NCBI RefSeq assembly: GCF_003957375.1
Contig: NZ_CP025473.1
Coordinates: 2,381,501-2,445,500, forward strand
Direction: 5' to 3'
DNA length: 64,000 nt
Source of the DNA: Enterococcus mundtii
Lineage (GTDB): Bacteria; Bacillota; Bacilli; Lactobacillales; Enterococcaceae
Shown here piece after piece: positions 3,693 through 6,640 of the stretch. The notes under the pieces were generated by a model. The model saw only the letters and a program-made list of their open reading frames with translations. It had not been told where the DNA came from and searched no databases. Numbering within the stretch: position 1 is the stretch's first letter; the number at the start of each line of letters is the position of its first letter. Made by a program: the position numbers and the translations under genes.

Positions 3693-4238
3693 TTAGTCAA
3701 TCTTATCTACTTGATCAAAATCAAGTTCTGTACTTGTTTCACGACCGAACATGTCAATGTTTACTTTAAGTTTTTCTTTTTCTTCATCGACTTCTGTCAC
3801 TTGTCCTTCTAAACCAGCAAAAGCACCTTCGATGATTTTTACGACTTCACCAACTTCTACTTCCAGTTCGTTTTGGCGTAAACTCATACCGATCGAACGT
3901 AAGATATGATTTACTTCTTCTGGTAGTAAAGGTGCTGGCTTGCTTCCTGCACCGTGAGAACCAACAAATCCAGTAACGCCCGGTGTATTACGGACAACAT
4001 ACCATGAAGCATCTGACATGATCATTTCTACTAAGACATACCCAGGGAATGTTTTATGAACGATTTCTTTTTCTTTCCCATTTTTCACTTCAGTTTCTGT
4101 TTCTTCAGGAACAACGACACGGAAAATAAAATCAGCCATTTTCATACTTTGCGCACGTGACTCGATATTTGCTTTTACTTTGTTTTCGTATCCAGAGTAT
4201 GTATGCAATACATACCAATTTTTTTCAAAAGATTCCAT
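3693..4238 (-). CDS. nusG: Transcription termination/antitermination protein NusG
   Basis: 181-aa NusG that binds elongating RNA polymerase and affects pausing and Rho or ribosome coupling. The N-terminal NGN domain begins KNWYVLHTYSGYENKVK; the C-terminal KOW domain holds VGEVVKIIEGAFAGLEGQV near residues 127-145. Length is normal for the family. In most Firmicutes nusG sits directly behind secE; here secE is 2.2 kb upstream with a foreign-looking module in between, and nusG has a TATAAT-like promoter of its own. Good ribosome binding site (GAGGAG) before the ATG. Confidence 0.97.
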   Translation of the reverse strand: MESFEKNWYVLHTYSGYENKVKANIESRAQSMKMADFIFRVVVPEETETEVKNGKEKEIVHKTFPGYVLVEMIMSDASWYVVRNTPGVTGFVGSHGAGSKPAPLLPEEVNHILRSIGMSLRQNELEVEVGEVVKIIEGAFAGLEGQVTEVDEEKEKLKVNIDMFGRETSTELDFDQVDKID

Positions 4239-4261
4239 TGAAGGCTCCTCATTTCATTTGT

Positions 4262-4310
4262 AAAATAAAAAAACCTCAGTTACCCGAAGCTTTTCCTCTC
4301 TTTGATTATA
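4262..4310 (-). promoter_or_regulatory. nusG promoter and leader hairpin
   Basis: On the minus strand a TATAAT is at 4310-4305 with a poor -35. About 15 bases downstream, AGCTTCGG GTAA CTGAGGTT can form a hairpin (with wobble pairs) followed by seven T, resembling a small attenuator before nusG. The promoter makes sense because secE no longer feeds nusG. The hairpin could be fortuitous. Confidence 0.45.
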
Positions 4311-4410
4311 GCACCGTTTGCTGGTTTTTACTAGTGACTTATTTTTTATACATTACTATTTAACAAAGATGTTATTTATTCTTTTTTTAAAAAAATATCT
4401 GTTTTTTATT

Positions 4411-4552
4411 CGTTATTAAAAATATTTTTTCTCTAATATACCCTCAATTTATAAAGAGAAATAATGGATACATATTTTTACGCGTTATTAAATAGAAAGA
4501 TATGTGAAAATATAGACCAAAAAACAGATTATTTATTCTTAAAAATTATAAT
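4411..4552 (+). promoter_or_regulatory. Upstream region of the secreted-protein operon with a direct repeat and -10 box
   Basis: CGTTATTAAA occurs at 4411-4420 and again at 4483-4492, each in a similar T-rich context, and a TATAAT lies at 4547-4552 without a good -35. A perfect -10 with a weak -35 and upstream repeats is the usual look of an activator-dependent promoter; the neighbouring Rgg-like regulator is the obvious candidate. Binding is inferred only. Confidence 0.35.
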
Positions 4553-4591
4553 CATATTTGTAAAGATAATTTATATGAAAGGAGATGACTG

Positions 4592-4645
4592 ATGTATCTA
4601 TTTATTCGTTGGCTTGAGTTGTCTTGGCAGTATGATTTTCGTTGA
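4592..4645 (+). CDS. 17-codon mini-ORF, candidate leader or signal peptide
   Basis: ATG at 4592 lies 7 bases behind a perfect AAGGAG. The product would be MYLFIRWLELSWQYDFR, rich in aromatic residues. It precedes the secreted-protein gene by 55 bases and comes after a TATAAT. Position and ribosome binding site suggest translation, as a leader peptide or as the precursor of a short pheromone for the nearby Rgg-like regulator. It does not match the usual short hydrophobic peptide pattern closely, so function is unknown. Confidence 0.4.
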   Translation: MYLFIRWLELSWQYDFR

Positions 4646-4700
4646 TTGATAAACATCGCTAAAGTAAAGAAACCCTAAATTAGAAAGCGAGGAATAGGAT

Positions 4701-5186
4701 ATGAAAAAAGCGATAGTTTCCCTTATGGCAATGGTGACAATAGGAAATGTTTTAATTCCTTCGACCGTATCTGTAAAAGCTGCCGAAGTATCATCAATTT
4801 CAACAAACGAAAACTTGTTTTCTCCCAAAAAAATTAATGCAACTCTTGAGAATTTCAAAATTTTTTTAGCAAATAAAGGTTTGACAATTGAAGAAGCAAA
4901 GCAGTTGAATAGTAGTGAAAAAGAAGAAATCATCCAAGAATATATTGACTATCTCTCTACAGCTCGTGTTGGTATCAATGTGATATTAGGTACCATTACT
5001 GCTGCAATGACAATCGTTACTGGATTATACAATGCTGGCCATTATGCTGCCAGACAATTAGATACTAGAGGCATATTAACAAAAAAAGAGTATAAGCCCA
5101 ACGGTGGTTGGATCATGGCTGGAATCATCGCTGCTTTCGGGATTCCAGCTGCTATGGGATTTGATGACTATATGTATAATAGGTAA
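4701..5186 (+). CDS. Secreted protein with two hydrophobic glycine-rich segments, unknown function
   Basis: 161 aa, not recognised. Residues 1-27 form a Sec signal peptide (Lys-Lys start, hydrophobic core, cleavage near VKA). The mature part has a charged helical region (about 40-85), a hydrophobic stretch GINVILGTITAAMTIV at 91-106 and a second one at 136-153 (GWIMAGIIAAFGIPAAMG), ending in an aromatic/charged tail. A good GGAAT-type ribosome binding site precedes the ATG. Small exported protein, two membrane-active-looking segments, a tiny membrane protein gene directly after it and an Rgg-like regulator facing it together suggest a bacteriocin-like or surface-active protein with its immunity protein. 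This is inference from context. Confidence 0.75.
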   Translation: MKKAIVSLMAMVTIGNVLIPSTVSVKAAEVSSISTNENLFSPKKINATLENFKIFLANKGLTIEEAKQLNSSEKEEIIQEYIDYLSTARVGINVILGTITAAMTIVTGLYNAGHYAARQLDTRGILTKKEYKPNGGWIMAGIIAAFGIPAAMGFDDYMYNR

Positions 5187-5190
5187 TCTC

Positions 5191-5352
5191 ATGGAAACAA
5201 TAAGACAACTCATTGCATCGATTTTTGGTTGGTTAGATTCTTTCGCATTGATTCTTTGCTGTATCACTGTTTTCTTTTTAAGTTTAAAGGTCTCATCTTT
5301 GGAAAAAGAAATCAAGGAATTAAAGGATGTTTTTCAAAAACATTCAAAATAA
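5191..5352 (+). CDS. Small membrane protein, candidate immunity protein
   Basis: 53 aa, starting at the ATG at 5191 with AGGTAA before it, only 4 bases after the stop of the secreted-protein gene. One strongly hydrophobic span (about residues 12-33, LDSFALILCCITVFFLSLKV) is followed by a charged, heptad-like tail rich in Lys and Glu. A longer frame back to 5104 overlaps the upstream gene and is unlikely. Tight coupling to a secreted hydrophobic protein fits an immunity role, as for many bacteriocins; a holin-like or accessory export role is also possible. No family recognised. Confidence 0.65.
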   Translation: METIRQLIASIFGWLDSFALILCCITVFFLSLKVSSLEKEIKELKDVFQKHSK

Positions 5353-5360
5353 ACATACAA

Positions 5361-5394
5361 TAACCGAAAAGTTTGCTATCTTTTCGGTTTTTTG
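5361..5394 (+). terminator. Terminator of the secreted-protein operon
   Basis: AACCGAAAAG and CTTTTCGGTT pair around an 8-base loop and are followed by T residues. It lies between the convergent small-protein operon and the regulator gene and may serve both. Confidence 0.85.
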
Positions 5395-5417
5395 TTTACT
5401 TCCAAGAAATATCTTTT

Positions 5418-6317
5418 TTAGTCTTCTATGTTAAGGGTATGTTCGATCTTGTATTGTGATTCAAATTTATGTAAATCAGCTAAAAATTCATTCCTCAGCT
5501 TGGTCGCACCAATCAATTTTAACCCTTTGAAAAAATCCTTTAAATTTTTACTGACAGCCTCTCCTTCAATACGGGCAAGTAAAAGTTGATAAAATCGATG
5601 ATATATTTCAGTTTCTCGCTGAAAAATAATTCTGCGCCGAGTCTCGAATAGTTTTTCCAAATAATACTTCGCTAATTTTAGTTCTTCTCTTTCCACCATC
5701 AGTAAAAACACATTATTATAAATACCTGATAATATAGAATGGAAAACCTCAAAATCTCCTTTTTTCATTACATTTTTTTCTACTTCTTTCAACCGCTGCT
5801 TGATGTAACTTGTTTCAAATAAATAGAGGAGAGAGGCAAAGGTAGTCATTTCAAATCTTCCCCACTCATCGATTTTTTCCAGATAATCGGATAATCTTTC
5901 GAGATAACTCGTATCTTTTTTATTTAATTTTTTTATCCCATTGATCTGCTCATACCACTTGTAAGTTTTAACAACAAGATAATTTCTCATGACGACTAAA
6001 TCATCTGAGTGTTCTAATTCTTGTGCTAGTTTTTTTAATTGATAACTAATTGCACCGTTACGTTGTTCTAAATTACGAAACATTTTTTTTAAACTCATAT
6101 TTTTATTAGAGACCCTGTCACCATCAAGATAAAAGATGAATTCATCAATATTCATATTGAGTCGTTCCAATAGTTCTAAAAACACTAGTAATGGTAAATT
6201 ACTTTGGCCATTTTCATATCTGGCTAACGATTCGCGCGAAACAATTCCATCGGCTAGCTTTTTTTGAGAGATGCCTCTGTCAATACGCATTTTTTTTAAT
6301 AATTCATGAACTTCCAT
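5418..6317 (-). CDS. Rgg/MutR-like transcriptional regulator
   Basis: 299 aa. The N-terminus is an XRE-type helix-turn-helix (GISQKKLADGIVSRESLARY, residues 13-32, then ENGQSNLP); the rest is all-helical, like the TPR-type peptide-binding domain of Rgg/MutR proteins, and the length matches that family. The ATG at 6317 has AAGGAGG in front; the frame extends 7 codons further but would bury that site. Rgg proteins are cytoplasmic and often respond to imported peptides and activate a neighbouring gene. Here the convergent secreted-protein operon is the likely target. Exact ligand and target are unproven. Confidence 0.78.
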   Translation of the reverse strand: MEVHELLKKMRIDRGISQKKLADGIVSRESLARYENGQSNLPLLVFLELLERLNMNIDEFIFYLDGDRVSNKNMSLKKMFRNLEQRNGAISYQLKKLAQELEHSDDLVVMRNYLVVKTYKWYEQINGIKKLNKKDTSYLERLSDYLEKIDEWGRFEMTTFASLLYLFETSYIKQRLKEVEKNVMKKGDFEVFHSILSGIYNNVFLLMVEREELKLAKYYLEKLFETRRRIIFQRETEIYHRFYQLLLARIEGEAVSKNLKDFFKGLKLIGATKLRNEFLADLHKFESQYKIEHTLNIED

Positions 6318-6402
6318 ATGTTCCTCCTTACTTATCAACTAGCAAAGTAAAATAATGATCAATGATTCACAAAAAACTTGTTGAATTTTCACGGTTACTA
6401 TC

Positions 6403-6446
6403 AAAAAAAATAGAGCTTCCAATCGATAAATAACCATGGATAGCTC
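6403..6446 (-). terminator. Terminator of the rpmG-secE transcript
   Basis: Minus-strand GAGCT(A)TCCA pairs with TGGAAGCTC, one base bulged, followed by TATTTTTTTT. It lies 24 bases after the secE stop and so disconnects secE from the regulator and from nusG. Confidence 0.75.
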
Positions 6447-6469
6447 ACCTTTTATTTGATTAATATTAA

Positions 6470-6640
6470 TTATTGCAAGATCCATGCAAACAAACTTTGG
6501 ATCGCTGTATCCATCACGAAAAACATTAGTCCGAAGATGATCGATGTCTCGATAACGACTAGTGTATCTTTACGTAATTGTTTTTTACTTGGCCAAGTCA
6601 CTTGTTTCATTTCATCTTTTACACTTTTAAGAAATTTCAT
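6470..6640 (-). CDS. secE: Preprotein translocase subunit SecE
   Basis: 56 aa, missed by length filters. It carries the conserved SecE signature KDEMKQVTWPSKKQL near residues 8-22 followed by a single C-terminal membrane span (VVIETSIIFGLMFFVMD). SecE holds the SecYEG channel together in the membrane. The ATG at 6640 has AAGGAGGAGG upstream. It follows rpmG by 17 bases, the normal arrangement, but the usual next gene, nusG, is displaced by about 2.2 kb. Confidence 0.96.
   Translation of the reverse strand: MKFLKSVKDEMKQVTWPSKKQLRKDTLVVIETSIIFGLMFFVMDTAIQSLFAWILQ

Follow-up and report, generated by a model that had tools for sequence, protein, structure and literature searches.

Comparison with described systems

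Several described systems come close to a locus of Enterococcus mundtii in which a gene for an Rgg/MutR-type regulator and a short operon lie between secE and nusG. The locus was found in a window of 64,000 nucleotides (the whole stretch of DNA that was analysed; contig NZ_CP025473.1, positions 2,381,501 to 2,445,500), located on the 2.77-Mb chromosome of a genome that has in addition a 58-kb second contig. EntV, or enterocin O16 (EF1097 of Enterococcus faecalis), is under cell-density control by Fsr and derives from an exported precursor of 160–170 amino acids (aa) whose C-terminal part of about 70 residues is active. Pairs of a bacteriocin and a small membrane immunity protein occur in lactic acid bacteria, in which immunity genes are also found without a bacteriocin. 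The Rgg/SHP (short hydrophobic peptide), RopB/leaderless-peptide and ComRS circuits of streptococci combine an Rgg-family regulator with a nearby short peptide open reading frame (ORF), and SHP pheromones have a Lys-rich start and a hydrophobic C-terminus. The available sections of two EntV papers describe a signal peptide, a pro-region, an active C-terminal part of about 70 residues and a required disulfide (PMC9562342, PMC6606811). The available part of a review on Rgg systems from 2026 gives leaderless peptides of 8–10 residues for RopB and mentions Enterococcus only for enteropeptins and in a reference (PMC13361665).

Like EntV, the closest characterised system in layout that is known to us, the window locus encodes an exported precursor with a likely active part of about 70 residues at its C-terminus, and cell-density control is proposed for it as well; it differs in having no cysteines, a paired tiny membrane gene and Rgg in place of Fsr. 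As in the pairs of lactic acid bacteria, a membrane protein of 46–68 aa (53 in the window) is encoded directly after the precursor. Unlike those pairs, the two proteins of the module have no match above cut-off in Pfam or NCBIfam and none to a PHROG at E below 0.01, which bears out, for these two, the sequence-only reading's remark that it recognised no family for the operon's products. In contrast to the streptococcal circuits, the nearby peptide is of 17–19 aa, ends in Arg and lacks an SHP-type leader. Among the top-ranked papers of a literature search that left subscription journals mostly outside its reach, no recognised description of the protein family or of this link between Rgg and a bacteriocin was found.

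The locus is best explained as an inserted, peptide-controlled bacteriocin cassette, a reading to which we assign a probability of roughly 0.62 on the basis of sequence comparison. Its parts differ in strength. Control of the operon by Rgg appears well supported and is very probable; that the 161-aa precursor is a bacteriocin is fairly supported and probable, and that the 53-aa protein is its immunity protein is fairly supported too and only slightly less probable; the mini-ORF peptide is proposed tentatively as the Rgg ligand, at about even odds. In the proposed mechanism Rgg would bind the operator and activate the operon, with the peptide of the first ORF as its ligand and thus with positive feedback. 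The precursor would be exported by Sec and then cut, its C-terminal 70–75 residues would act on the membranes of related bacteria, and the 53-aa protein would reside in the membrane and protect the producer. The features of the module are as follows.

4503..4519, plus strand: proposed Rgg operator TGTGAAAATATAGACCA, 27 nt upstream of the −10 box
4547..4552, plus strand: operon −10 box TATAAT, without a −35 hexamer and not among the sigma-70-like sites of the promoter scan
4592..4645, plus strand: mini-ORF MYLFIRWLELSWQYDFR, 17 codons and stop, ribosome-binding site (RBS) AAAGGAG; candidate Rgg pheromone or leader peptide
4701..5186, plus strand: 161-aa exported precursor, proposed bacteriocin; residues ~87–161 likely the active part
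5191..5352, plus strand: proposed immunity protein, a 53-aa membrane protein with one hydrophobic segment and a charged tail
5362..5389: hairpin between the convergent units (z −4.7, 0/200 shuffles as good)
5418..6317 (from ATG), minus strand: rgg, Rgg/MutR-type regulator of 299 aa

Probable insertion between secE and nusG

A module of about 2.2 kb had been reported to split secE and nusG, with the Rgg gene convergent to the mini-ORF, 161-aa and 53-aa genes, and by ORF coordinates the distance between the two flanking genes is indeed 2231 bases. The spacing was compared across Enterococcus, as the sequence-only reading had proposed. The genomes compared, among which E. mundtii is represented by one, carry handles (G000, the window genome; G001, E. 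ratti; G003, E. thailandicus; G011, E. villorum; G012, E. sp. MSG2901; G013, E. sp. ZJ1622; G033, E. sp. RIT-PI-f). Measured between match positions, the gap is 105–108 nt in 12 of the 15 same-genus genomes and long in the other three (2234 in the window genome, 1748 in G008 and 1740 in G004), so that the module is probably an insertion and not a set of genes that all relatives carry at the same place. The three genomes form one clade in the nusG tree (95/94), which makes one insertion followed by descent the simplest account of the module. By eye, no clear target-site duplication was found at the module.

Regulator and operon promoter

By its domains, an N-terminal helix-turn-helix (HTH) and an Rgg C-terminal domain, the regulator belongs to the Rgg/MutR/GadR regulators, as had been read from its sequence (Pfam HTH_3 1.3e-10 and Rgg_C 1.4e-12, both above cut-off). 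It matches solved relatives over its full length (closest 4ryk, 3.4e-11; a MutR-family entry, 1.5e-8) and scores 26.9 bits against TIGR01716, under that model's cut-off of 36.9. Binding of a short peptide is a further mark of these regulators, though one established for only some of them; for the window Rgg the mini-ORF peptide is the candidate. Comparison of the window gene with those of G008 and G004 gave a nonsynonymous rate (dN) of 0.08 and a synonymous rate (dS) of 0.45–0.49, with a dN/dS of 0.16–0.17. Thirteen genes at E 1.1e-35 or better make up its subfamily, all in the genus (next match 1.9e-26): one each in G000, G004, G008, G013 and G014 and two each in G010, G003, G005 and G011. 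The Rggs of G005:C2 and G011:C12 are interrupted and were omitted from the Rgg tree. Among the remaining 11 genes, those of the window, G008 and G004 group together (100/100), as do the three without the operator (90/88). The neighbours of the relatives were assigned by reading of the surroundings plus family matches.

G010:C9: PqqD-like protein (above cut-off), 70-aa peptide and ATP-binding cassette (ABC) genes
G003:C45a: thioredoxin-like protein (above Pfam cut-off)
G003:C45b (L081): 110-aa exported protein (no family match), which we take to be lactococcin-972-like, and an ABC gene
G013, G010:C13, G011:C12: 273-aa exported protein (broken in G010:C13) and thioredoxin-like protein, that of G013 matching Pfam Thioredoxin above cut-off and PedC_BrcD under it (3.6e-9)
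G014: 280-aa protein and thioredoxin-like protein
G011:C16: ABC genes
G005:C2: 254-aa exported protein and thioredoxin-linked protein
G005:C10: no neighbours of these kinds
G004, G008: lone small gene

Read in this way, most of the 13 subfamily Rggs appear to adjoin exported precursor-like, thioredoxin-like or ABC genes. In G005, the stretch L108:2373-6392 encodes two exported precursor-like proteins that differ from each other, together with a 124-aa membrane gene present in duplicate and a thioredoxin-like gene, all beside an interrupted Rgg with a one-mismatch operator.

The operon is preceded by TGTGAAAATnnnGACCA-N27-TATAAT, an element that appears to differ from the streptococcal Rgg boxes. 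Visual inspection first revealed it in the window, in G010 and in G003, and in weaker forms in G014, G004 and G008; the two sites in G005 were found by scans. Scored over 20 positions, the window, L078 and L079 reach 20, L080 and L108 reach 19, L081, L086 and L029 reach 16 and L030 reaches 15, with the top five scores attained by none of 200 Markov simulations per locus. Throughout the 105 family genomes only five sites have 0–1 mismatch, all of them at Rgg-subfamily loci (no mismatch at the window and two other loci, one at two further loci). The element would connect this Rgg subfamily with a number of dissimilar operons that look antimicrobial. The lack of a −35 hexamer in the window promoter suits an activated promoter.

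The mini-ORF peptide

Downstream of the operator and with a good RBS lies the mini-ORF MYLFIRWLELSWQYDFR, and L081 has MIILQLFDWLNNGWQIDVR at the same place; common to both is W-L-x-x-x-W-Q-x-D-x-R-stop. Comparable frames, either interrupted or without a start, were seen in G010:C9 (DWFIDVR), G005:C2 (KWFIDVC), G005:C10 and G011:C12, while G013 and G010:C13 have TTG-start ORFs that contain GWWIDCR and run on. Within 9184 distinct mini-ORFs (12–30 aa) from the loci examined, two besides the window's share six C-terminal-anchored residues with it: that of L081, and one in L007 which is located elsewhere and counts its start Met. The pattern W-x-x-D-x-[RS]-stop gave 25 matches in 15 genomes against 4 in the reversed control, 3 of them no more than 1.5 kb away from an Rgg gene; since these three helped to define the pattern, the mini-ORF comparison was relied on instead. 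The C-terminal match between the window and L081 is suggestive of a pheromone, and the peptide would then be a candidate signal for Rgg control outside streptococci. It lacks the marks of the SHP pheromones, a Lys-rich start and a hydrophobic C-terminus, as MYLFIRWLELSWQYDFR contains no Lys and ends in Arg.

The alternative that survives best keeps the same Rgg-run bacteriocin–immunity operon and takes the mini-ORF as a leader peptide tuning the downstream genes, with an Rgg ligand that is another one or encoded elsewhere. The place of the mini-ORF directly upstream of the precursor, its good RBS, its departure from the Lys-rich, hydrophobic form of SHPs and the finding of interrupted versions only in several relatives would all suit such a role. 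Against it, the predicted fold of the operon leader RNA is no more stable than those of shuffled sequences (z 0.33), and this RNA matches no Rfam family above threshold, and the C-terminal peptide match precedes an unrelated operon, which favours a shared ligand. We regard a leader peptide as unlikely, at about one chance in four.

The exported precursor and its family

The 161-aa protein has, as read by eye, a hydrophobic N-terminus with an AxA-like site, and it shows the marks of an exported bacteriocin: a signal peptide, a short product and an adjoining gene for a 53-aa membrane protein with one segment. With the protein as single query 9 of 58 genomes matched, and with a profile 9 of 105 family genomes, of which 7 were among the 15 of the genus; both counts include its own genome. 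A pattern-led scan of named genomes gave 9 confirmed loci, all in Enterococcus. Among 398 genomes sampled across the class, matches came from 3: its own, G490 from a different family within the order (2e-17) and a third that is doubtful (5.7e-4). Relatives were also present in 3 of 72,556 plasmid records, two of Bacillus altitudinis and one of B. pumilus. These were reached via the window-protein relatives L011 and L013, the 161-aa protein itself giving no match to plasmid records at E up to 10. Two pattern scans of viral contigs gave 68 and 9 matches, none confirmed as a relative, and no relative was found in phages with a Bacillus relative as sole query at E up to 0.1.

Identity to nine relatives is 35–72% over the C-terminal 75 residues and 10–21% over the pro-region, and G-F-[DE]-D stands near the C-terminal end in all ten aligned rows, the window included. 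The protein belongs to an unnamed family, here called GFDDY after its C-terminal motif, with a signal peptide, a variable pro-region and a conserved C-terminal half. No match was obtained in NCBIfam at E up to 10 or in PHROGs at E up to 1. The sole Pfam match, SdrG_C_C (0.028), is under cut-off, for which reason an adhesin was rejected; the known non-toxin family that would have spoken against a bacteriocin did not appear in these libraries. Together with its small partner the precursor would represent a bacteriocin–immunity family without a name in the libraries searched.

It was also considered that the protein is an EntV-like factor against fungi or biofilms, or a surface factor, instead of a bacteriocin against relatives. 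Its layout of signal peptide, pro-region and C-terminal active part of about 70 residues is that given for EntV in the available sections of the two papers, which themselves call EntV a bacteriocin, so that the two roles may be compatible (PMC9562342, PMC6606811). However, the window protein has no cysteine and no LPxTG in its 161 aa, whereas EntV, as far as those sections go, has two cysteines forming a needed disulfide; membership of EntV was rejected on this ground. EntV was absent from the 6 and 4 weak PDB matches obtained with an E limit of 10 (best values 0.11 and 0.64), in a PDB set not confirmed to include 7ROA and without a direct alignment. The SdrG match under cut-off speaks against a surface factor, which is less likely than a bacteriocin, and the retention of a tiny membrane gene by itself is in keeping with self-protection. 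These roles seem improbable, at around one chance in eight.

The small membrane protein and the two-gene unit

Library searches with the 53-aa protein gave weak matches only (best E 0.005, under cut-off where one exists). A small membrane-protein ORF of 46–68 codons follows the precursor region directly or overlaps its end in 13 of 14 judgeable loci (the window, L003–L008, L010, L011, L013, L087, L088 and L136), the exception being L009, where both genes look decayed; L012 and L057, cut by contig ends, are outside this count. The precursor is broken in three of the 13 (L005, L008, L010). In G004 and G008 it is missing from the locus and was found nowhere in either genome, and it is truncated in G009, frame-shifted in G013 and interrupted in G015, with the small ORF open in all five, as is expected of an immunity gene. 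The two sister genomes G004 and G008 with their lone copies would offer a natural test of immunity. Relative to G008 and G004, with which it is 79–81% identical, the window's small protein has a dN of 0.10–0.11, a dS of 0.34–0.39 and a dN/dS of 0.26–0.32 over only 53 codons. Enterococcal type-1 small proteins are 23–32% identical to it, and the rest resemble it in size and layout only; that of G490 has perhaps two membrane segments.

Upstream of the pair, in those enterococcal relatives that have sequence there, a divergent HTH gene is found in L003, L004, L005, L007, L008, L011, L012 and L013, with a shorter one in L006 and an apparently truncated one in L010. Most encode C-terminal membrane-like helices, and the L003 protein matches HTH_3 at 2.9e-17. 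The pair is thus the constant unit and the regulator exchangeable. The proposal of a bacteriocin with its immunity gene gains support from these comparisons: the module is missing in 12 of 15 genomes, the two-gene unit recurs across genera, the tiny gene is kept alone and a promoter element is shared.

The converse, in which the tiny protein acts as the effector (a membrane toxin or a leaderless peptide) and is partnered or antagonised by the exported protein, draws on G004 and G008, where the promoter drives no gene but the tiny one and the RBS of that gene is strong, yet it is the least probable reading, because the signal peptide and conserved C-terminal half belong to the other protein and a toxin gene is not expected as sole survivor in several genomes.

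On the two B. altitudinis plasmids (L087:4336-4476, L088:4384-4524) a 46-codon ORF, starting with ATG in one and TTG in the other, lies directly after the window-protein relative and encodes a hydrophobic segment and charged tail; it is missing from the displayed gene table, which is known to be incomplete. At L136:1498-2153 of G490, a 162-aa relative is followed 2 nt on by a 54-aa membrane ORF.

Evidence against the proposed cassette and its possible extension

Several observations weigh against a peptide-controlled bacteriocin cassette. The Rgg gene is convergent with the operon and 1.8 kb from the proposed operator. This operator was defined by eye on loci that were then used to test it, and the scores of 15–16 (L029, L030, L081 and L086) were reached by 5–37 of 200 simulations, leaving these four sites credible mainly by position; at L082–L085, four of the 13 Rgg loci, no operator above simulation level was present. 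Allowing up to 3 mismatches in the 15 genus genomes gave 19 sites against 10 in the reversed control, and up to 2 in the 105 family genomes gave 10 against 5, the five two-mismatch sites all being in other genera; only the sites with 0–1 mismatch therefore stand out. Support for the peptide match comes mainly from two intact mini-ORFs, the similar frames at other loci being without a start, interrupted or running on, and in G004 and G008 none with an RBS was found. The AlphaFold model of the precursor is poor (mean pLDDT, the predicted local distance difference test, 48), and both precursor and small gene look decayed in L009 (G033).

A broader proposal can be put forward only tentatively, with somewhat less than even odds. 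Within this enterococcal group the Rgg subfamily, the operator TGTGAAAATnnnGACCA-N27-TATAAT and a class of 17–19 aa pheromones ending in W-x-[IY]-D-x-R may form a portable switch reused before unrelated bacteriocin operons. One of these would comprise the GFDDY bacteriocin family with its tiny immunity proteins, a family reaching Bacillus plasmids, and the sister species that keep the immunity gene alone under the same switch could eavesdrop. Should the window operon stay off in the absence of its signal, the bacteriocin would escape ordinary screening, and the peptide would be a direct switch for it.

Flanking genes and minor observations

The module is bordered by the following features.

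3693..4238, minus strand: nusG, match in 15/15 genus genomes
4305..4310, minus strand: nusG −10 box, ordinary for the genus and outside the module
6403..6446, minus strand: secE terminator, hairpin and T-run (−14.1 kcal/mol, z −2.1), conserved in G004 and G008
6470..6640, minus strand: secE, 56-aa ORF, match in 15/15 genus genomes

The terminator claimed for secE was located as described, beginning about 24 bases past the gene, with 6 of 200 shuffles folding equally well. It is absent from the terminator-scan list of the window, probably because of its loop, and the hairpin between the convergent units is the stronger of the two. A promoter of its own had been counted among the oddities of nusG: the −10 box is there, and the same element stands just upstream of nusG in all 15 genus genomes (TATAAT in 13, TACAAT in 2), so it does not set this locus apart.

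There are apparently repeated arrivals near nusG. GFDDY cassettes of G012, E. thailandicus and G009 (L003, L004 and L010) lie across nusG from the module's position, at a distance of about 3 kb and adjoining a serine-dehydratase-like gene, and an Rgg relative of E. villorum (L084) lies about 2.3 kb from it.

In the nusG leader (4239–4300, minus strand) a block of approximately CTTCGGG..ACTGRGGTTTTTTTATTTTACAA recurs with small changes in 15/15 genomes; it matches no Rfam family above threshold and is perhaps an attenuator. The sequence TTATTTATTC is present twice, near the nusG promoter (4372–4381) and between the operator and the operon −10 box (4529–4538), with both copies found in G004 and one exact copy in G008.

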